Below, in pieces: positions 1 to 9,272 of a stretch of 22,936 nucleotides of DNA. The translations under genes and the position numbers were made by a program. Position 1 is the first letter of the stretch, and each line of letters begins with the position of its first letter. Under the pieces are notes generated by a model. The model saw nothing but the letters and a program-made list of their open reading frames with translations. It was not told the DNA's origin and did not search any database. The DNA comes from a virus: the IMG/VR virus record IMGVR_UViG_3300027573_000682, positions 1-22,936 of that record; one strand, 5' to 3'.

Positions 1-1440
1 CAGGAACAACGGCCTTGTCGGGTCGTGCTCGAGGTCGGGCACGATGTGGTCGGCGCCGAAGCCCTCGTAGACCGGGAGACCCGGCCGCATCTGGAGCGCA
101 TAGGCGAGGGCGTTCGGGGCGTCGATCTTGCCGGTCGGGTAGTTCAGGAGCTGCTCGGTGAGGGCGGGGAGCGGCTGGGCGAATTCGCACTCGCGGGCCG
201 CGAAGAAGGGCTGGAGACCCCGAATGAAGTCGAGCTTGCCGCGCGGGGCGCGGACGCCGCGTACGGGTAAATACGTACCGCGCCGGACCATCTCATGGCG
301 GAGAGGCTGTAAGAGGAACTGCTCTAAGCCATCCAATTCCACCCCGACCCAGACCGGGTCGTACCGCTCGGCAATATCGAAGGCCAAAGCGACGATTTCG
401 TCGGGGAGGAGGAATTGTGCGTCCGCCGCCCACACCACCAATCGGTTGCTGATCCACGACCAGACGGCCCAGCCGGTCGTGGCGGACGTGCTCCCCACCG
501 TGCGGGCCGGGTCGATCATCGCGTAGCACGCCTGCCAGGTCCGCTCGCGCGGGGCGACGCGGATCATTTCCCGGCTGAAAATCCGGTCGGACTCGCTGAA
601 CGCCCGGCACAGCATCTCGCGTTCCCAGACCGCCAATTCGCCGACCCGCTCGTAGCCCTGCCGCTCCCGGTCGATTTTCGCCAGCGGCCAGACTTCGGGC
701 CAGCTGGCCTTCCGCTTGCCATCCTCCCCCAGATACTCCACCGGGTAGGTCTGGCACGGCCAGCCCCATTCTTTCTCCAGTTTGACCGGCAGGCTCTCGG
801 CGTCCATCGGCGTGGCGCGGATGCGGACCTTGCGGTTGGGGGCACAGGCCGGCAGCAGTTCGGAGAGGAACCAGCGCAGCGTTTTTCGCCGCTGGTCGGG
901 TGTCTGGACGCTGTCCGGGCTTTCCACGTCATCGACGAAGATGAAATCGGGCCGGTGGTCGAGGTGCTTGATGCCGCGGATATCCTGGTCGCGGCCGATC
1001 GCCTGGACGCACACCCCGGTCGTGGTCACCAGCTTGGTCTGGGTCCAGGCGTCGCCCTTGAGGTCGCCGAAGGCGGCCTGAATCCAGGGGTTGTTCATCA
1101 GTTCGTAGGCCACGGCGGCAAGGCGTTCCGCCGCCCTGGTCTCATTGCTGCTGATAATCACGATGTTGCGGTGCGCCATCAGGCAGGCCGCCAGCACGAT
1201 GTCCTCCTCGCCGAGGGTGGATTTGGCGCTGCCGCGGAAGGCGAGGCGGATCGAGTATTGATCCTCGCTCCAAAAGTCGGAAACTAAGTCTTGATGAAAT
1301 GAAGCCGGAGGAGTTGCCACCCCATCATACTGATGGCGGTGCGCAAACAAGACCTCGTGACTAGACCACTTATCTTCCGATAGGATTTTTATTATCTGCG
1401 ATCTTGCAGCAAGGGCCGCTACGGCATCAACGTCTGCCAC
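1..1440 (-). CDS. terL: Large terminase subunit (TerL), 3' end outside window
   Basis: This is the packaging motor that pumps DNA into proheads and cuts it. The minus-strand frame is open from a GTG at 1440 to the window edge, giving 480 visible residues and no stop. Walker A reads FRGSAKST (about residues 68-75) and Walker B reads FIFVDDVE (166-173). The RNase H-like nuclease domain shows MIDPART (Asp about 310), GVELDG (about 366-371) and KIDAPNALAY (Asp about 440). The GTG start is preceded by GAGG and overlaps the end of the upstream HNH gene by 14 bases, which suggests translational coupling. The motif set and order are those of known large terminases. No frameshift was seen in the codons read. 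Only the C-terminal tail is missing. Confidence 0.93.
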   Translation of the reverse strand, partial: MADVDAVAALAARSQIIKILSEDKWSSHEVLFAHRHQYDGVATPPASFHQDLVSDFWSEDQYSIRLAFRGSAKSTLGEEDIVLAACLMAHRNIVIISSNETRAAERLAAVAYELMNNPWIQAAFGDLKGDAWTQTKLVTTTGVCVQAIGRDQDIRGIKHLDHRPDFIFVDDVESPDSVQTPDQRRKTLRWFLSELLPACAPNRKVRIRATPMDAESLPVKLEKEWGWPCQTYPVEYLGEDGKRKASWPEVWPLAKIDRERQGYERVGELAVWEREMLCRAFSESDRIFSREMIRVAPRERTWQACYAMIDPARTVGSTSATTGWAVWSWISNRLVVWAADAQFLLPDEIVALAFDIAERYDPVWVGVELDGLEQFLLQPLRHEMVRRGTYLPVRGVRAPRGKLDFIRGLQPFFAARECEFAQPLPALTEQLLNYPTGKIDAPNALAYALQMRPGLPVYEGFGADHIVPDLEHDPTRPLFL

Positions 1441-1876
1441 GATACCTCAAATCGTTGCGGGTTTTCTGGCATATCGAGCAGGTTCTGCTCCACTTATTGG
1501 CGCCATCGTATGGGTGCCCTCTTGGGCACGTCGTCTTCTTCCCGTTCTTGCTTTTGGCCCCAGAGGGAGGCCGCAGCTCCCCTCTCGCCATGTTCACCTT
1601 ACGGGTCACCGCTTCTAGGTGCTCGGGATTACAACACCCGCGGTTGCGGCAGAGATGGTCCACGTCGTGGCCGGCAGGAATGTCGCCCACAAAAACGATA
1701 TACGAGAATCTGTGGGCATTGGTCATCTCTCCGTCCGCCCAGAAACTCCCGTAGCCGTTGGTCTTGCCGCCAAGCCAATTCCAACAGCCTGTCACCGGAT
1801 GCGGCAATATCCGCCCGAAGAACCGCTCGGCAAGCGTGCGCGTCAGAAACCGTTCAAAAGGCTCGGCCGTCTTCAC
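1427..1876 (-). CDS. HNH endonuclease upstream of terminase
   Basis: A 149-residue HNH endonuclease. The core contains AHRFSYIVFVGDIP followed by DVDHLCRNRGCCNPEHLEAV (about residues 57-90), which carries the His-Asn-His set and a CxxxxCC zinc-binding pattern. A second Cys/His module (CPRGH ... CSIC) lies near the C-terminus. The start is GTG at 1876 with GGAG five bases upstream. It lies between a short HTH gene and terL and overlaps terL by 14 bases. HNH proteins beside terminases are known to take part in cos cleavage and packaging in HK97-like phages. A free-standing homing endonuclease is the alternative. A relative is encoded at 8826-9272 in this window. The family call is firm; the role is inferred from position. 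Confidence 0.88.
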   Translation of the reverse strand: MKTAEPFERFLTRTLAERFFGRILPHPVTGCWNWLGGKTNGYGSFWADGEMTNAHRFSYIVFVGDIPAGHDVDHLCRNRGCCNPEHLEAVTRKVNMARGELRPPSGAKSKNGKKTTCPRGHPYDGANKWSRTCSICQKTRNDLRYRGRR

Positions 1877-1892
1877 TGCCGCTCCGGCTCGC

Positions 1893-2087
1893 TCACGGCG
1901 TCGCCTCGCGGGCCCTGGCTAGCCGGTCGCGGATCACGCTGCGGGCGACGCCGTAGCGTTTCGCCAGCGTCGCCAGCGACATGCCGGCGGCGTGCAGCTT
2001 GGCGATCTTCTCGACGGGCAGATCGATCCGGCGCGGGCCGACCAGCCGCTCCTCGGGCCGCCGCTCGGGTGCCGGCGGCGCGCTCAT
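1893..2087 (-). CDS. Small helix-turn-helix protein, candidate small terminase
   Basis: A 64-residue protein with a clear HTH in its C-terminal half: LPVEKIAKLHAAGMSLATLA followed by KRYGVARSVIRDRL, a resolvase/Hin-like 'recognise, turn, recognise' pattern. The ATG at 2087 overlaps the stop of the upstream gene as ATGA, so this start is preferred over an in-frame ATG at 2126. It is followed by the HNH gene and terL. A DNA-binding protein just before TerL would fit a small terminase subunit, but it is much shorter than typical TerS (about 130-200 residues) and lacks an obvious oligomerisation region. It may instead be a regulator. DNA binding is well supported; the packaging role is a guess. 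Confidence 0.72.
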   Translation of the reverse strand: MSAPPAPERRPEERLVGPRRIDLPVEKIAKLHAAGMSLATLAKRYGVARSVIRDRLARAREATP

Positions 2088-2371
2088 AGCGGATCGATGC
2101 CCAAGCGCTCGGCCCGCTTGAGCCAATCGGCAATGGCAAAGCGGCTGCCCAGCCCGTCTATGCCCGCGCGCAGCTCATCGATACCCTCGCCCATCCATAC
2201 CGGCGCGCCGATCCATTGCCGCAGATACGCCCGGATTGCCGAAACTTGCGTGGCCGTTAGAGGTTCGCCATGCAAGTAGGCTTCGACGGCGGGCCGCAGC
2301 ACGCCGCTCGTCTCGTCCTGCCAATAGCCCGGGGGACGGTAGCCGGGGACCCACACGCGACCGTCGCTCAT
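2084..2371 (-). CDS. Hypothetical phage protein (95 aa)
   Basis: Not recognised. It encodes 95 residues beginning MSDGRVWVPGYRPPGYW. A helical middle part (LTATQVSAIRAYLRQWI) is followed by a second helical part ending in AERLGIDPL. The start at 2371 forms an ATGA overlap with the upstream gene, and its end overlaps the next start by ATGA. The in-frame ATG at 2440 would overlap the neighbour by 70 bases and is rejected. It sits in the packaging operon. Soluble, no membrane segment or Cys cluster. Confidence 0.72.
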   Translation of the reverse strand: MSDGRVWVPGYRPPGYWQDETSGVLRPAVEAYLHGEPLTATQVSAIRAYLRQWIGAPVWMGEGIDELRAGIDGLGSRFAIADWLKRAERLGIDPL

Positions 2372-2766
2372 GGCGCGCCCCGCTTCGGCTCGGTGCGGGC
2401 GGCGAGCGCTTCCCGCACTTGCAGCGATTTCAGCCGCCACCAGATCCGCTGGTCATCGTCGGCGGTGTCCCAGTCGGTGGCGTAGACCTGCGCCATCAGC
2501 TCGGTCACGGGGTCGGCTCGTTCGCCGCGCTTGATGCGGTCTACCAGATCTGCATCCCACGGCCCGGTGCGGGCGGCCTCGCGCTGGCGGCGAGCGAGCA
2601 CGCGGTCCATGGCGGCATTCGCTACAACGTCGAGTAGCGTGCGCATGCGATCCCACCCGCGGAGCGCGGACTCGTTCCAGATTTCGAGCGCATCATCGAC
2701 GAGTTCGGGCGAGATGATCTCGGCGTAGATCGCCTCGGCGAGGTCGCGCTCGCGGTCGTCGCTCAA
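2368..2766 (-). CDS. Hypothetical phage protein (132 aa), TTG start
   Basis: Not recognised. A 132-residue, strongly charged, mostly helical protein starting MSDDRERDLAEAIYAEII. The start codon is TTG at 2766, overlapping the upstream TGA (TTGA). No ATG lies nearby and the N-terminal sequence after this TTG looks like a genuine protein start. Its 3' end overlaps the next gene by ATGA. It is part of the leftward packaging operon; there is no motif that gives a function. Confidence 0.72.
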   Translation of the reverse strand: MSDDRERDLAEAIYAEIISPELVDDALEIWNESALRGWDRMRTLLDVVANAAMDRVLARRQREAARTGPWDADLVDRIKRGERADPVTELMAQVYATDWDTADDDQRIWWRLKSLQVREALAARTEPKRGAP

Positions 2767-2993
2767 TCCGCCTCCAGGCTCAGGCTGCGCAATTCATAGT
2801 GCAGCCGCTCGGCCTGCCGCAGGAAATCCAGGAGGGCGGCGTAATCCCTGGCGGTGGCCAGCATCGTGCCGCCATCGACATGCTCGAGGGTGAGGCGGTA
2901 GCGGCGGCCACCCTCCGGCACCACCTCCACCCGGCCGCCCCGCAGCTGCGCCTTCTGCCCGCTGCTCAGCCGAATCTCGGTCATCGGCGACAC
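2763..2993 (-). CDS. Hypothetical phage protein (76 aa)
   Basis: Not recognised. A small protein with a beta-rich N-terminal half (RLSSGQKAQLRGGRVEVVPE, then RRYRLTLEHVDGG) and a helical C-terminal half. The start could be GTG at 2993 or ATG at 2984, and neither has a good Shine-Dalgarno sequence. An A/T-rich stretch (TATATATAAT on the minus strand, 2995-3004) lies immediately upstream of the GTG and is unusual in this GC-rich operon. It resembles a -10 box but no -35 is visible. The gene overlaps the next one by TTGA. Confidence 0.62.
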   Translation of the reverse strand: MSPMTEIRLSSGQKAQLRGGRVEVVPEGGRRYRLTLEHVDGGTMLATARDYAALLDFLRQAERLHYELRSLSLEAD

Positions 2994-3014
2994 ATTATAT
3001 ATAGGCCGCAGCGC

Positions 3015-3263
3015 TCACTCGGCCGCGTCCCGGTCGGCCGGCTCCACCGCCTCCTGCAATTTCAGCCGGCCCGGCCCCCGGTGCTTCACCATCTTCCGCA
3101 CAATGCGCCCCGTTACCGTGGCATCAAACTGCAAATTACGCAGAACAGACTGCAACTCGGCAATGGCATCCCCAACCTCCCGGGAACCCAGTATCTTGGC
3201 GCGCTCCAATTCGCTGTCCGGCGCGTCTCCGACGAAGAGGATCTCGATCCGGTGGGTGGTCAC
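3015..3263 (-). CDS. Hypothetical phage protein (82 aa), first gene of packaging operon
   Basis: Not recognised. 82 residues starting MTTHRIEILFVGDAPDSELE, acidic then basic, with a helical centre (VGDAIAELQSVLRNLQFDA). The start is GTG at 3263, supported by a strong purine-rich ribosome site (AAGGAGAGGCC just upstream). It is the first gene of the leftward run that ends in terL. A 15-bp element shared with the region upstream of the AAA ATPase gene (10846) lies at 3290-3304. Confidence 0.68.
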   Translation of the reverse strand: MTTHRIEILFVGDAPDSELERAKILGSREVGDAIAELQSVLRNLQFDATVTGRIVRKMVKHRGPGRLKLQEAVEPADRDAAE

Positions 3264-3429: not shown

Positions 3430-3780
3430 ATGTTAGATTCAGCCGAAAAGCAAGAAGTCGCCGAGGATGGGGTCTTTAGCTGTCAGGAAGCCTACTTCTG
3501 GGCCGAGACGCTCGACGCAGAGGGCCGCGAAGCCGTCGATCGGTGGCTACGGCAGAAATACGGACTCCCGGCCCCAAAAAGAAAGGGAATTATATATTTG
3601 ACTCCCCAGATGCTCGGTGCGGCGTCGGTCGAGCACGCCTCCTGCCCCCGGTCCGAGAGCTTCCCGGGACACTCCGCATCTCATTCCGGCAACGCTGGGA
3701 GTGCCGCCCAGTGCGTTGGCCGCGCGTTGCTGTGTATCGACAAGCCATCTTCAAGCATTTCATCTACCCCCACCCAATGA
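3430..3780 (+). CDS. Small phage gene with its 3' end replaced by an IS
   Basis: The first 51 codons are phage sequence; the rest is read from the left end of the IS1595 element, ending at a chance stop at 3780. Removing the IS and one copy of the 8-bp target duplication joins codon 51 to ...AAA GCC CCG AAG and restores a 63-residue protein ending in LPGLSSA, with the stop at 5431-5433. The native part is acidic and helical (AEKQEVAEDGVFS, EAYFWAETLDAEGREAVDRW) and of unknown function. The present product carries a 65-residue unrelated tail. Leader motif copy A lies upstream. Confidence 0.6.
   Translation: MLDSAEKQEVAEDGVFSCQEAYFWAETLDAEGREAVDRWLRQKYGLPAPKRKGIIYLTPQMLGAASVEHASCPRSESFPGHSASHSGNAGSAAQCVGRALLCIDKPSSSISSTPTQ
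3577..3584. repeat. Left target-site duplication AAAAGAAA
   Basis: This 8-bp copy directly abuts the left inverted repeat and is identical to 5389-5396. Confidence 0.9.
3585..3607 (+). repeat. Left terminal inverted repeat of IS1595 element
   Basis: These 23 bases are the exact reverse complement of 5366-5388. The A/T-rich centre differs sharply from the surrounding GC-rich DNA. Confidence 0.9.
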
Positions 3781-3983
3781 GTTCCGTCTGGAAATCGAAA
3801 GAAAAAAAGAGCCTCGGTTCGCAGCGGTGCAGTCTCTATTGGTTGCCACATCGGCGGCAGAAATCTTGTGAGGTTCAAAAGAAAACGGATGTCTTCTTCG
3901 TATCCCGTCACGAACCGCTCGGCCTCTTGATAGGCGAAACGCCCGCGAATTTCGGCGAGGGTTTTTACATCTTCCGGTGTCAT
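3681..3983 (-). CDS. DUF551-like passenger protein of the IS
   Basis: A 100-residue protein. Its C-terminal two thirds (about residues 44-100) starts MWQPIETAPLRTEALFFF and ends THWAALPALPE, the usual start and end of DUF551-like domains of phage proteins; their function is unknown. The N-terminal 40 residues are helical (TPEDVKTLAEIRGRFAYQEA). It is the last gene of the transposase transcript and overlaps the preceding gene by ATGA (3980-3983). It lies inside the inverted repeats, so it is cargo. A phage-type gene as IS cargo suggests it was picked up from a phage. Confidence 0.72.
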   Translation of the reverse strand: MTPEDVKTLAEIRGRFAYQEAERFVTGYEEDIRFLLNLTRFLPPMWQPIETAPLRTEALFFFRFPDGTHWVGVDEMLEDGLSIHSNARPTHWAALPALPE

Positions 3984-4204
3984 GCTAAACCACTCTCAGT
4001 CCGCCTTAGGATAACTCGTAATCCACAACACTCTGGGCATACACTCTCCCGTCCGCTGGAACCGCTGCCTTGGCAGGTGCCGCACGTATCGAATGGGCAT
4101 TCCTTTTTTAGTGATAAATGTCCGCACCATCTGCACCGCCAATGCGGCATGACGCCCGCTCGTGCGAGATTTATCAAATCACAGCGCAATGCGGCGTCCG
4201 TCAT
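3980..4204 (-). CDS. Zinc-ribbon-like passenger protein of the IS
   Basis: A 74-residue cysteine-rich protein with CRWC, CPFDTCGTCQGSG and CPECCG, i.e. three CxxC-type pairs resembling the zinc modules of DnaJ. It probably binds one or two zinc ions. ATGA overlaps join it to both neighbours, so it is translated in series with the transposase. Function unknown; an RNA- or DNA-binding or adaptor role would fit but is not shown. Confidence 0.66.
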   Translation of the reverse strand: MTDAALRCDLINLARAGVMPHWRCRWCGHLSLKKECPFDTCGTCQGSGSSGRESVCPECCGLRVILRRTESGLA

Positions 4205-4407
4205 GTGGGCGAGCCTTTCGCAATCTTTGCCGCCCGCCTCTTACGTGCCTTTGCCGGCTTCGATTTTGGTTTTGGTTTATAGGACAGAACCTTGCCCGCA
4301 ATCGCATCAAGCTCCGGCGGGACGCGATACGGGCAGCACTCGCAACGCGTTACACCGGCCCCGCGATGCCACGGCAGGGGGCAGTCCGCGCACAAATCGC
4401 CGCTCAT
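4201..4407 (-). CDS. Small Cys-rich basic passenger protein of the IS
   Basis: A 68-residue protein with two cysteine pairs (CADC at 6-9, CECC at 23-26) and a very basic C-terminal tail (KPKPKSKPAKARKRRAAKI). Its start overlaps the transposase stop by ATGA (4404-4407). A metal-binding head with a Lys/Arg tail would suit nucleic-acid binding, perhaps acting with the transposase. No family was recognised. Confidence 0.66.
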   Translation of the reverse strand: MSGDLCADCPLPWHRGAGVTRCECCPYRVPPELDAIAGKVLSYKPKPKSKPAKARKRRAAKIAKGSPT

Positions 4408-5321
4408 GCGATGTACGCCTTGTAGGTCAGCCGCTTGCCGGCAATGCCTTTGACGAAGCTCTCCAGCCGGTCCAGCGTGTGCCGTTTCACGTCGCCTTCG
4501 TTCAGCCGGAAGGCGAACTCGTCAACGTAGCGGTGCAGGTGCTTCGGGCTGGCGTGGTGGTAGACGCCGATCAGCCCGCGCTTGAGAACCGCGAATACGC
4601 TTTCGATGCTGTTGGTCGTCACGTTGTCGCGGACGAACTCGGCTGCGCCGTGGTTGATCGTCTCGTGATCGAAGAACAGCCCGCCGAGGCCGCGATAGGC
4701 GGCGAACTCGTCAGTGTTCAGCGTCGAGCGGACCTCGACATTCTCGTGAATGACGCGGTGCACCGTCTCCTGATCGGTGTTGCCGACCACCTTGGCCTTG
4801 GTGCGCCCACCGCGCTCGCGCATGCCGATGACGGCAGTCTTGCCGACCGAGCCGCGCCCCATCTTGAGCTTCTTATTCTCGTGCTTGTTGGCCTCGATCC
4901 CGCCGACGTAGGTCTCGTCGATTTCCACAACGCCGGCCAGCTTGCCGAAGTCGGAACCGCAAGCCTCGCGCAACCGACCAAGGATGAACCACGCGGTTTT
5001 CTGCGTGACGCCGATTTCCTTGGCGAGTTGCATGCTGCTGATGCCCTTGCGAGCGGTGACGAGCAGGTACATCGCGTAAACCCACTTGTGCAGCGGGACA
5101 TGGGACCGCTCGAACACCGTCCCAGTGCGAACGGTGAAATCCTCCTGGCACTGCCGGCAGCGGTAATAGCCGCCCTTGCGAGTCGTGATCTTGTCGCCAG
5201 TCCCACAAACTGGGCAGCGCGGACCCTGCGGCCAGAGCAGCCCTTCGAGGTAAACGCGGGCGCTGTCCTGGTCGGGAAACATGGCGAAAAGCTGGAAGGT
5301 GGAAATGGTGCTGCGCGACAT
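4404..5321 (-). CDS. IS1595-family transposase
   Basis: A 305-residue DDE-type transposase. An N-terminal zinc ribbon (CPVC at 36-39, CRQC at 55-58) is followed by an HTH-like region (MQLAKEIGVTQKTAWFILGR) and the catalytic core: EIDET (Asp 135), NTDEF (Asp 204) and the TNSIESVFAVLKRG block (about 236-249) carrying the third acidic or polar position. Length and domain order match complete family members. The ATG at 5321 has AAGGGG upstream. An in-frame TTG at 5390 lies in the target duplication and is not used as the start. It catalyses cutting and joining of the terminal repeats at 3585-3607 and 5366-5388. Confidence 0.92.
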   Translation of the reverse strand: MSRSTISTFQLFAMFPDQDSARVYLEGLLWPQGPRCPVCGTGDKITTRKGGYYRCRQCQEDFTVRTGTVFERSHVPLHKWVYAMYLLVTARKGISSMQLAKEIGVTQKTAWFILGRLREACGSDFGKLAGVVEIDETYVGGIEANKHENKKLKMGRGSVGKTAVIGMRERGGRTKAKVVGNTDQETVHRVIHENVEVRSTLNTDEFAAYRGLGGLFFDHETINHGAAEFVRDNVTTNSIESVFAVLKRGLIGVYHHASPKHLHRYVDEFAFRLNEGDVKRHTLDRLESFVKGIAGKRLTYKAYIA

Positions 5322-5365
5322 CGGAAACCCCTTATTTCGTGCCAGAAATATAGGGATTTTGGCGC

Positions 5366-5388
5366 GGGGAGTCAAATATATAATTCCC
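5366..5388 (-). repeat. Right terminal inverted repeat of IS1595 element
   Basis: A perfect 23-bp reverse complement of 3585-3607. It lies 45 bases upstream of the transposase start. Confidence 0.9.
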
Positions 5389-5396
5389 AAAAGAAA
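5389..5396. repeat. Right target-site duplication AAAAGAAA
   Basis: Identical to 3577-3584. Its last two bases form the foot of the hairpin at 5395-5422. Confidence 0.9.
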
Positions 5397-5422
5397 AGCC
5401 CCGAAGCTCTTGCCGGGGCTTT
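5395..5422 (+). terminator. Hairpin terminator at the 3' end of the disrupted gene
   Basis: A 9-bp perfect stem (AAAGCCCCG at 5395-5403, CGGGGCTTT at 5414-5422) with a 10-base loop. This is the common phage 'AAAGCCCC...GGGGCTTT' terminator form. Before the insertion it overlapped the last codons of the gene starting at 3430. The IS entered at its 5' foot, so that gene is now parted from its terminator. Confidence 0.65.
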
Positions 5423-5501
5423 CCTCCGCTTGACCTGTCGCGGCGGCAGGGTCTAAGCTGAAATCCGCTCAATCGGCGTTAGCGCGCCATCGCGGACCCG
5501 C

Positions 5502-5834
5502 ATGTCAGATAACCCGCCCTTCCCGAGAAGACAAGCCCCCAGCAACGTAACGTCGCTGCCGTCCGAGGGGCGGATGTTCGCGCGCGAGCTGAGGCGCATC
5601 AACAAAGGGGCGCTGGTCGGCTTCTTCGAGCTGCACATTCCCGAGTGGGGCGTGATTTTTCACGACTGCAAGTGGTTCCGCACCAACAAAGGTGAGTGGA
5701 TCGGCTTGCCCTCGACCAGCTTCACGACCCGCGAGGGCGTGAAAGCCTGGAAGAACCTCGTCGAGTTTCCCGATCGGGAAGCCGGCAGCCGCTTTCAGGA
5801 GGCCGCGATGGCAGCTGTAAGGCGGCTGTCGTGA
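5502..5834 (+). CDS. Phage SpoVG-like conserved protein
   Basis: A 110-residue protein. The conserved part is RRINKGALVGFFELHIPEWG, then a GVIFHDCKWF strand, IGLPS, and VEFPDREAGSRFQEAAMAAV. This is a pattern common in phages and mobile elements and reminiscent of the SpoVG fold ('functions with cell division/RNA binding' in the bacterial family; unknown in phages). The start at 5502 gives the full N-terminus but has a weak ribosome site. An internal ATG at 5574 follows GAGGGGCGG and could be the true start. It overlaps the following small ORF by GTGA. Confidence 0.75.
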   Translation: MSDNPPFPRRQAPSNVTSLPSEGRMFARELRRINKGALVGFFELHIPEWGVIFHDCKWFRTNKGEWIGLPSTSFTTREGVKAWKNLVEFPDREAGSRFQEAAMAAVRRLS

Positions 5835-6013
5835 GAAAGCGTGCCGGCAGGATCGGCAGGGTCCACACCTCGTTGCATAACCCGCGGCAGACCCGCAATC
5901 TACGCAAATCGAAGCAGCCCGAGTGGGGGCAGCTTACCAACCGGGAACTCCTCTTTCCCGGGCTATCCGAGCGAGGAAAGCCTCAACCGAGGAAGACGCC
6001 GCTCGGCACATAG
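5831..6013 (+). CDS. Small basic ORF downstream of the SpoVG-like gene
   Basis: A possible 60-residue product, very basic and without a known motif (RKRAGRIGRVHTSLHN, then TRNLRKSKQPEWGQL). The GTG at 5831 overlaps the previous stop as GTGA, the arrangement used widely in this phage. This context is the main support. A 7-bp hairpin with loop CTCCTCT (5941-5961) lies inside it, so the second half may belong to the structured block downstream rather than be selected as protein. Confidence 0.4.
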   Translation: MRKRAGRIGRVHTSLHNPRQTRNLRKSKQPEWGQLTNRELLFPGLSERGKPQPRKTPLGT

Positions 6014-6220
6014 CGGCCAGGATAGCCGCAGCAGTTGAACTCGACCACGGCGGTAGTAGGGGATGACGCCCGAAAACGAGCCATGGCGGCAGCAGACGCG
6101 CGAGGTGGATACCTACCGCAGCCGCACCGTGAGTTGATGCCGGAGCAGACCGCACGTCGGGCAGGTGCCCGATAGAATAGGCGCAGGCCGGATAGCCGGT
6201 ACAATCCTCGCGGCAGCGTC

Positions 6221-6252
6221 GCGAGAAACCCGGCCGAGTTGTAAGCGTGCGG
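6221..6252 (+). repeat. Diverged copy R0 of the GAAACC...GTTGT repeat
   Basis: It reads GAGAAACC, then CGGCCGA, then GTTGTAAGCGTGCGG. Aligned with R1 it keeps the GAAACCCG...GTTGT...GCGG frame with a few substitutions and single-base gaps. It lies about 350 bp before R1. Confidence 0.35.
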
Positions 6253-6260
6253 TCCCCTTA

Positions 6261-6274
6261 CGCGCGCGCGCGCG
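6261..6274. repeat. (CG)7 alternating tract
   Basis: Seven CG dinucleotides in a row between A and T. Alternating CG can adopt Z-DNA under supercoiling; here it is only a compositional note. Confidence 0.6.
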
Positions 6275-6571
6275 TCCCTATTTACGGTCGTATGAAGCAA
6301 ACAGGCAGCATCTTCCCTTGCGATCAGCAAGGGAAGAGGCATCCAAGAAGTCGATGATGTGTGGCGACTCGCCTTCCCGCCCTTCGGGCTAGGGACCGCA
6401 CCACCGCACGCCACACAACCCGATGGCCGCAATCGCCGGAAAGGGCTGCCGAGAAGGCTACCCCGCTGCCACCGTCCGGTGACAGTCCCCAACCACCCCA
6501 ACTGGTGGTGCGGCCGGTAGCGCAAAGCGCGGCGTGCCAGACCCCCACAACTCCCACACCAATCGACGGTC

Positions 6572-8822: not shown

Positions 8823-8828
8823 TGAATG
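8813..8828 (+). promoter_or_regulatory. Hairpin covering the stop of GP88 gene and start of HNH gene
   Basis: CATTCA (8813-8818), loop TTAG, TGAATG (8823-8828), extendable by G-U pairs. The GP88 stop (TAG 8820-8822) sits in the loop and the candidate HNH start ATG (8826-8828) sits in the stem, so translation of the second gene could depend on ribosomes finishing the first. Confidence 0.45.
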
Positions 8829-9272
8829 TGTGGCATATACGTTCGCATGCCCGGTTTGCAGCGTACCCCGATGGCAATCCGCCTCGACCGGTTAAGCATG
8901 CCGGGCGAGGGCGGATGCCGCATCTGGACCGGCAATTGCCTGCCAAAAAAGGGCTACCCGATCGTGGGAAAGGGCGGGCATGGCAACGGCAACGCATACG
9001 CACACCGCGTTGCCTACGTGCTGGCATTCGGGCCGATTCCTGATGGATTCGATATTCACCATGCCTGCGGCAATGTGAAATGCATCAATCCGGAGCATTT
9101 GCAGGCACTGGACCGCAAGCTTCATCGGGCGATGCATCATCCGGCGGCATGCCCGCATGGCCACGAGTACACTGCAGAAAACAGTTATTACCGCCCCGCT
9201 GACGGAATCAGAATGTGCAAGCAATGCCGCAAGCTGTACATGCGGGAATACTACCTGCGGCACAAACGATAG
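8826..9272 (+). CDS. Second HNH endonuclease
   Basis: A 148-residue relative of the HNH protein at 1427-1876. The core is AHRVAYVLAFGPIPDGFDIH with HACGNVKCINPEHLQAL, and the C-terminal zinc module is CPHGHEY ... CKQC. An N-terminal CRIWTG strand matches the CWNWLG of the first copy. It probably acts as a free-standing homing or nicking endonuclease. The start is uncertain: the ATG at 8826 lies in a hairpin, and ATGs at 8847 and 8871 are possible. None has a strong ribosome site. It sits as an insertion-like unit between the GP88 gene and the small genes that follow. Confidence 0.85.
   Translation: MCGIYVRMPGLQRTPMAIRLDRLSMPGEGGCRIWTGNCLPKKGYPIVGKGGHGNGNAYAHRVAYVLAFGPIPDGFDIHHACGNVKCINPEHLQALDRKLHRAMHHPAACPHGHEYTAENSYYRPADGIRMCKQCRKLYMREYYLRHKR

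Follow-up and report, generated by a model that had tools for sequence, protein, structure and literature searches.

The question raised by the DNA at positions 3585-5388 of IMG/VR virus record IMGVR_UViG_3300027573_000682 is why an insertion sequence residing in a phage genome should carry three small genes behind its transposase. The window, meaning the whole 22,936-nucleotide stretch that was analysed, is a 22.9-kb linear record that encodes a terminase large subunit, Erf, a RecE-like exonuclease, HNH and a DNA methyltransferase, and is a tailed-phage contig; throughout, the data are metagenomic contigs, and their virus status is as classed by IMG/VR. The named groups of the IS1595 family are IS1016, ISPna2, ISH4, ISSod11, ISNwi and ISNha5, and its transporter IS members (tIS) are the accepted exceptions to the single-gene rule of the family. 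IS elements are regarded as unusual in phages (PMC8631192), and those of the IS1595 family usually have a single gene (PMC8101967). Passenger-bearing tIS such as tISCpe8 and tISSag10/MTnSag1 are attributed to Siguier et al. 2009 in PMC3129680 and PMC5704250, and mobile insertion cassettes (MICs), exemplified by MIC231 of Bacillus cereus, appear in PMC6542083 and PMC3129680.

The element at 3585-5388 is a complete one of the IS1595 family, with perfect terminal inverted repeats (TIRs), a target-site duplication (TSD), an intact DDE transposase and three genes coupled by ATGA. The 23-nt TIRs, with the 3' (cargo-end) copy at 3585-3607 on the plus strand and the 5' (transposase-end) copy at 5366-5388 on the minus strand, are 100% complementary and form the longest inverted repeat of the region; their motif occurs at only two places in the window, the element ends, against a chance expectation of 0.00, and among relatives both TIRs are conserved as GGGAATTATATAC(A/T)TGACTCCC. 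Direct reading places the two 8-bp TSD copies, each AAAAGAAA, at 3577-3584 and 5389-5396. TSDs of this length are typical of the IS1595 family (PMC8101967, PMC12561309), and exact 8-bp TSDs flank 76 of 80 unique relatives, where they are 82% A/T versus 43% in the nearby flank. A sequence-only reading had already called an IS1595-family element with perfect 23-bp ends and an exact 8-bp duplication, which inverted-repeat comparison and direct reading bear out; the span it gave, 3585-5388, has the element boundaries right and leaves the two TSD copies outside.

Three element-free relatives (L251-L253) encode a neighbouring protein 87% identical to that of the window, and their DNA matches the window at 85% identity beginning exactly at base 5389; upstream of 5389 they differ, so the empty site is clean on one side only. 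One further contig (L004) has the element of the window in the same position; the two copies agree at all 1804 bases, although the shared flank is only about 86% identical, and L004 is possibly a chimeric assembly around an identical element.

A candidate promoter overlaps the 5' TIR. A -35 box, TTGACT, lies inside the repeat at 5370-5375 (minus strand), 17 bp from a -10 box, TATATT, at 5347-5352 (minus strand); both are assigned by consensus, with 10 of 12 positions matching. TTGACT stands at this position of the 5' TIR in 41 of 80 relatives, the 3' TIR consensus being ATGACT, and the mean promoter score at the 5' TIR is 7.85 versus 7.14 for shuffled sequence and 6.09 at the 3' end. These values are suggestive of a promoter within the 5' TIR.

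All four genes of the element lie on the minus strand. The transposase (P0001, 305 aa, 4404-5321) matches the IS1595 DDE domain PF12762 (E 5e-46), the zinc-ribbon domain PF12760 (E 5.7e-10) and NF033547 (200.6 bits, cut-off 75); its catalytic residues D135, D204 and E240 are conserved in 100, 100 and 98% of 105 relatives, and C36, C39, C55 and C58 of the ribbon in 99-100%. An N-terminal zinc ribbon is found in the transposases of all IS1595 groups but IS1016 (PMC8101967). Here the transposase is not the sole gene, as three further ORFs follow, each of whose starts overlaps the preceding stop as ATGA. P0002 (68 aa, 4201-4407) overlaps the transposase stop and consists of a Cys-rich N-terminus fused to a small basic module, hereafter KPK, which occupies its C-terminal half at 4210-4320 (PPELDAIAGKVLSYKPKPKSKPAKARKRRAAKIAKG), scores E 4e-16 with the KPK HMM and is conserved clade-wide. 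P0003 (cargo gene 1, 74 aa, 3980-4204) has several CxxC pairs and a CxxCxGxG motif and is a putative zinc-binding protein; its relatives were sought in phages and viral contigs, and none besides the identical copy in L004 was found. P0004 (cargo gene 2, 100 aa, 3681-3983) has a DUF551-like C-terminal half. ORF positions agree with the earlier description of a transposase and three small ATGA-joined genes in one transcript-like array, and its count of two Cys-rich products among the three is also right. The DUF551-like label given to the third gene stands in part: P0004 alone has no Pfam match and does not reach the gathering score of DUF551 (PF04448), but over about 60 residues it is 35% identical to a Sulfitobacter phage protein with a sub-threshold DUF551 match and 34% identical to an ORF of DUF551-like appearance situated just beyond another element (L159), which points through intermediates to a weak DUF551 relation.

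That an IS1595-family element carries passengers in this phage is thus confirmed; the further idea, that a coupled Zn-Zn-DUF551 trio forms a unit, fails. A search for further elements with the same three genes returned a single copy, the 100% identical one in L004, and a recurring cassette is rejected, as outside the window only L004 has P0003, P0004 and the Cys-rich segment of P0002. The KPK half of P0002 is not cargo at all, because this small basic protein belongs to the core shared by the whole clade of elements. The sister element L005 has a transposase 97% identical to that of the window and different cargo; the two elements are 93.9% identical as far as the transposase stop, beyond which the KPK segment alone is common to both. 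The refutation proposed at the outset had two parts, of which one came about, since close full-length relatives lack these genes, and the other did not, as no uninterrupted phage was found that has the genes together.

The wider family was collected by scanning viral contigs with the transposase of the window; this identified 128 relatives, and 80 of them were retained. Most relatives are complete elements with conserved ends and exact, A/T-rich 8-bp TSDs. The 85 complete relatives with transposases at least 56% identical, which include a few duplicates of one insertion and number 80 unique by their first 200 bp, contain no bare (cargo-free) element, and neither do 21 further complete loci, partly overlapping the 85 and including some duplicates. 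Cargo is found at three positions: slot A, 5' of the transposase; slot B, between transposase and KPK; and slot C, between KPK and the 3' TIR. Among the 85, slot A alone is used in 41, C in 22, AB in 9, B in 7, and BC and AC in three each. Between near-identical cores the cargo is swapped sharply at gene boundaries (L079/L080, L014/L019, L033/L038, L025/L026, window/L005): L079 and L080 have in common 994 bp at 90.8% and 149 bp at 91.9% identity around unrelated middles, and the 3' ~1.08 kb is common to L014, L019, L009 and L012, whose slot-A cargo differs. Mapped on the transposase tree, slot-A cargo is gained or lost at least 14 times. Transposase remnants were considered as the source of the 5' leaders of slot-A elements and rejected (0 of 53).

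Loaded elements are also found in unrelated surroundings. L164 and L201 are 99.7% identical, and L190 and L198 96.4%; in each pair the TSDs differ and the flanks are without similarity, the first pair residing in unrelated phages. Such comparisons show phage-type cargo to have been exchanged in the slots and, to judge from the alignments, to move with the element as a unit into A/T-rich 8-bp sites. With passengers unrelated to transposition inside their TIRs, and cargo differing between near-identical cores, these elements are transporter ISs. In one locus (L031) an element with its own TSD is inserted within slot A of another, and such insertion may be a route of cargo gain. Pfam matches in the cargo of full elements include six C5 methyltransferases and three PAPS reductase proteins, and HNH genes are found too; four cargo proteins match SspD models (PADLOC), and one element (L061) carries a C5 methyltransferase with a type II restriction enzyme match, the one type II restriction-modification pair. 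The second gene of L045, a restriction enzyme candidate, had no PADLOC match.

KPK is the constant companion of this transposase. It is a small basic protein of 35-60 aa with a conserved part of about 42 aa, encoded in most elements immediately 3' of the transposase, and its consensus is PPKxLDAIADxVLAYRPKPKxKxAKKRKRxxxK. The window's P0002 has the defining LDxIxDxVLxYRPKxK helix and basic second helix beside the IS1595 transposase of the clade, here fused behind the Cys-rich segment. The HMM finds KPK in 85 of 85 complete relatives with transposases at least 56% identical, and in 70 of the 99 loci that bear KPK, its start and the transposase stop share an ATGA. There is no match in relatives at 53% transposase identity or below, or in L115 (58% over a 216-residue segment, no TSD). 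KPK as a general feature of IS1595 was rejected, as other IS1595 copies have no obvious recurring equivalent beside them; a possible remote analogue is the coupled 60-aa ORF, rich in K and P, of one Methylocystis plasmid element. Plasmid relatives of the transposase are at most 47% identical. KPK members match nothing in Pfam or PHROGs, and the four single-module members scanned against NCBIfam have no match there.

Over 29 independent pairs dN/dS is about 0.19 for KPK and 0.10 for the transposase, and by this estimate KPK is under purifying selection. An AlphaFold2 model of one related member has helices at 9-20 and 28-42, with a mean pLDDT of 89.6. A cis-acting role for the region, as a 3'-end DNA site, is unlikely, because KPK lies anywhere from 11 bp to well over 1 kb away from the 3' TIR and it is the protein that is under selection. 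KPK forms the N-terminal part of a cargo protein in four elements (L045, L061, L074, L111), its fusion partner being a C5 methyltransferase in three and a P63C protein in one. The KPK-based locus search, which used a DNA pattern, also returned transposase-less elements that retain it (L151, L165, L182, L195); a pure transposase helper would be unneeded there, an observation that counts against a helper role. That KPK is always kept after transposase loss proved to be an ascertainment artefact of that search, as the TIR-based sample of such elements is mostly without KPK.

For this sample, the TIR itself served as the query against viral contigs, to avoid selection by transposase or KPK, and 80 loci are among the matches listed. 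The same listed matches include 37 complete elements, 16 with transposase and KPK and 16 with neither; KPK is present in 16 of 16 transposase-bearing elements and is kept in three loci (two unique elements) with no transposase or only a C-terminal fragment of it. KPK therefore goes with the transposase and not with cargo. The 16 with neither make up at least 13 unique cassettes of 253-1155 bp, which have the TIRs and an exact TSD, no transposase, and one or two phage-type genes each; in structure these, and not the element of the window, are MICs, having IS ends, a TSD and coding cargo alone. Eight among the 13 listed encode a DNA- or base-modification-type enzyme: an N6/N4 methyltransferase in four (L291, L313, L331, L332), a Dam-type methyltransferase in L298, a C5 methyltransferase in L309, Mom in L326 (PDB 8bv8, E 4e-4, and phage Mom proteins), and in L292 a PTPS/QueD-family protein that may be used in DNA modification. 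The L294 cargo was considered as Mom-like and not confirmed. In several of these cassettes a start codon (ATGACTCCC, read as MTP, in L294, L309 and L313) or a stop codon comes from the TIR.

Accessory proteins encoded with a transposase are exemplified by TnpB/TnpC of IS66 and IstB of IS21. The present elements are like these in that a small conserved protein is encoded with the transposase; on a comparison by description only, KPK is unlike them in being a ~42-aa basic two-helix protein without Pfam, PHROGs or NCBIfam match. Phage anti-restriction genes (Dam/Dcm-type methyltransferases, Mom) are normally fixed in phage genomes, and the same gene families recur in the slots and cassettes described here, but as copies inside transposable units with TIRs and TSDs. 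With the tIS of the IS1595 family the lineage has in common a zinc-ribbon DDE transposase, A/T-rich 8-bp TSDs and passengers between TIRs; it differs from the named tIS in that every copy seen is loaded, the ATGA-coupled KPK is always present, three slots turn over fast and the carriers are mostly phages. The named tIS examples have resistance or mobilisation genes and reside on plasmids or chromosomes. The cassettes resemble MICs in having IS ends around a non-transposase gene, presumably mobilised in trans by a related IS, and are unlike them in their phage genomes, IS1595-type ends, TIR-supplied start and/or stop codons and largely DNA-modification enzymes. In the literature outside subscription papers and preprints, no description of KPK, of the phage-associated IS1595 lineage or of IS1595-ended phage cassettes was found; tIS and MICs are established kinds, and these three are apparently undescribed.

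Several other accounts of the same data must be weighed. The element may be an ordinary transporter IS that picked up neighbouring phage genes by chance, with KPK riding along neutrally or being a second passenger that plays no part in transposition. Passenger-bearing IS1595 tIS are already known (PMC3129680, PMC5704250), and most cargo is without assigned function and is found mostly as singletons. However, every complete element of the clade has KPK under purifying selection while other slot content turns over, complete relatives examined include no bare copies, and DNA-modification genes recur, so chance acquisition is an unlikely account. It is distinctly improbable that bacterial chromosomes are the main home of the elements, with copies in viral contigs being stray prophage insertions or mis-binned contigs. 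The element type does occur in bacterial contigs, both metagenome-assembled genomes and isolates and including chromosome-like contexts of isolates (e.g., Novosphingobium marinum, Pelagerythrobacter marinus), from which it follows that the lineage is not exclusive to phages. Against a bacterial home, the same transposase query found 36 relatives in 257 Gb of bacterial and archaeal genomes versus the 128 close relatives in viral contigs, of 296 order-mates only two, both known beforehand, have KPK, and terminases are encoded in the window and in 17 of 38 larger relative-bearing contigs sampled (phrog_2).

The role of KPK allows two further readings. The main alternative to a helper of transposition is a repressor, of transposition itself or of transcription from the TIR promoter, that would limit damage to the carrier phage. 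A DNA-binding repressor is equally compatible with the translational coupling, the small basic two-helix fold and the candidate promoter of the 5' TIR, but KPK belongs to no recognisable helix-turn-helix family in Pfam, PHROGs or NCBIfam, and a repressor is judged rather unlikely on balance. KPK could instead be a payload acting on the host cell or the phage (e.g., by nucleic-acid binding or as an anti-host protein) and carried for the benefit of the phage, in line with its retention in some transposase-less elements and its N-terminal fusions to methyltransferases or the P63C protein. Its distribution in the TIR-based sample, as set out above for the matches listed, speaks the other way (absent from 16 elements lacking transposase, present in all 16 that have one), and a payload is considered highly improbable.

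The reading preferred here, and thought probable from the sequence comparisons, is that of a phage-associated IS1595 cargo-vehicle lineage with a conserved transposase-KPK core, exchangeable cargo and cassettes mobilised in trans. The element of the window would be an autonomous member of this lineage, which would have the layout 5' TIR (probably with the promoter -35), slot A, transposase, slot B, KPK, slot C, 3' TIR. Its whole operon may be transcribed from the TTGACT-N17-TATATT promoter that begins in the 5' TIR, and its slot content consists of the two small genes and the Cys-rich extension on KPK. Transposase and the translationally coupled basic KPK constitute the conserved core, with KPK most likely binding DNA and/or the transposase and assisting synapsis or end recognition. 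As the comparisons show, phage-type genes are inserted and exchanged in the slots and the loaded unit moves whole; transposase-less cassettes with the same TIRs would presumably be mobilised in trans. DNA-modification enzymes abound among the known cargo, so the carrier phage would probably gain escape from restriction in return, and DNA modification may be the benefit that keeps loaded copies in phages.

A broader proposal is put forward more tentatively, as possible though in some doubt: a phage gene-cassette economy, in which the KPK-equipped IS1595 lineage would power exchangeable, TIR-bounded and often single-gene cassettes across unrelated phages and spread chiefly anti-restriction genes, in a manner integron-cassette-like in function and driven by a DDE transposase. 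KPK is an unannotated conserved protein whose role would be assignable by a simple transposition assay. If the proposal is true, these elements would provide a concrete, testable route by which anti-restriction genes pass between unrelated phages.

Some cargo genes are fused to KPK, the small basic two-helix protein that is coupled to the transposase and conserved in this IS1595 clade. On the viral contig L061, a C5 methyltransferase with KPK fused to it is followed by a match to an HNH type II restriction enzyme (4915-6488), apparently a complete R-M system carried by a transposon. The cargo at L111 (5421-7167) consists of a P63C-domain protein, again with KPK fused, and a 246-aa gene without assigned function.

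Elements that have lost transposase sequence were also found. Four of them (L151, L165, L182 and L195) lack the transposase except for about its last 20 codons, which lie directly behind the 5' terminal inverted repeat (TIR) and are followed by KPK and/or cargo; the L195 element is 457 bp in length and holds KPK and one further small ORF. At L307 (8301-9447), an internal deletion with an in-frame junction at about transposase residue 148 has left a fusion of the transposase N-terminus to KPK between the TIRs.

Nested and adjoining elements were observed as well. In the 4344-bp element of L031 (target-site duplication TAAAAAAG), slot A, between the 5' TIR and the transposase, contains a second IS1595 element in antisense orientation (element coordinates 898-3058), having a 70% identical transposase and a separate duplication, ATCGAAAG. 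The copy at L004, 100% identical to the window element, is adjoined by an additional 22-bp TIR and then AAAAGAAAA (3903-3933), with small ORFs upstream, one of which terminates within this extra TIR. The layout resembles a head-to-tail junction with the right end of a further cargo element. The two octamers that flank the L004 copy are in opposite orientations.

At L159, some 65 bp separate an IS1595 element from a DUF551-like phage gene outside it (4573-4749); the gene type carried as cargo in the window and in its sister element L005 thus also occurs as a resident neighbor. Away from the element, the window has two HNH-type genes, one matching HNH endonuclease PHROGs (1430-1876) and the other assigned by eye (8826-9272), possibly further selfish genes in the same phage genome.

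Outside the KPK clade, two IS1595 relatives at 52-53% (L112 and L118) lack KPK and have methyltransferase-like ORFs, judged by eye only, directly after the transposase; methyltransferase-like cargo may therefore predate the clade. IS1595 transposases at 41% on a Roseomonas plasmid (L130) and a Methylobacterium plasmid (L132) are followed by a common three-gene order (hypothetical, PIN/VapC, hypothetical), possibly marking another IS1595 lineage that travels loaded, its passengers being of toxin type.
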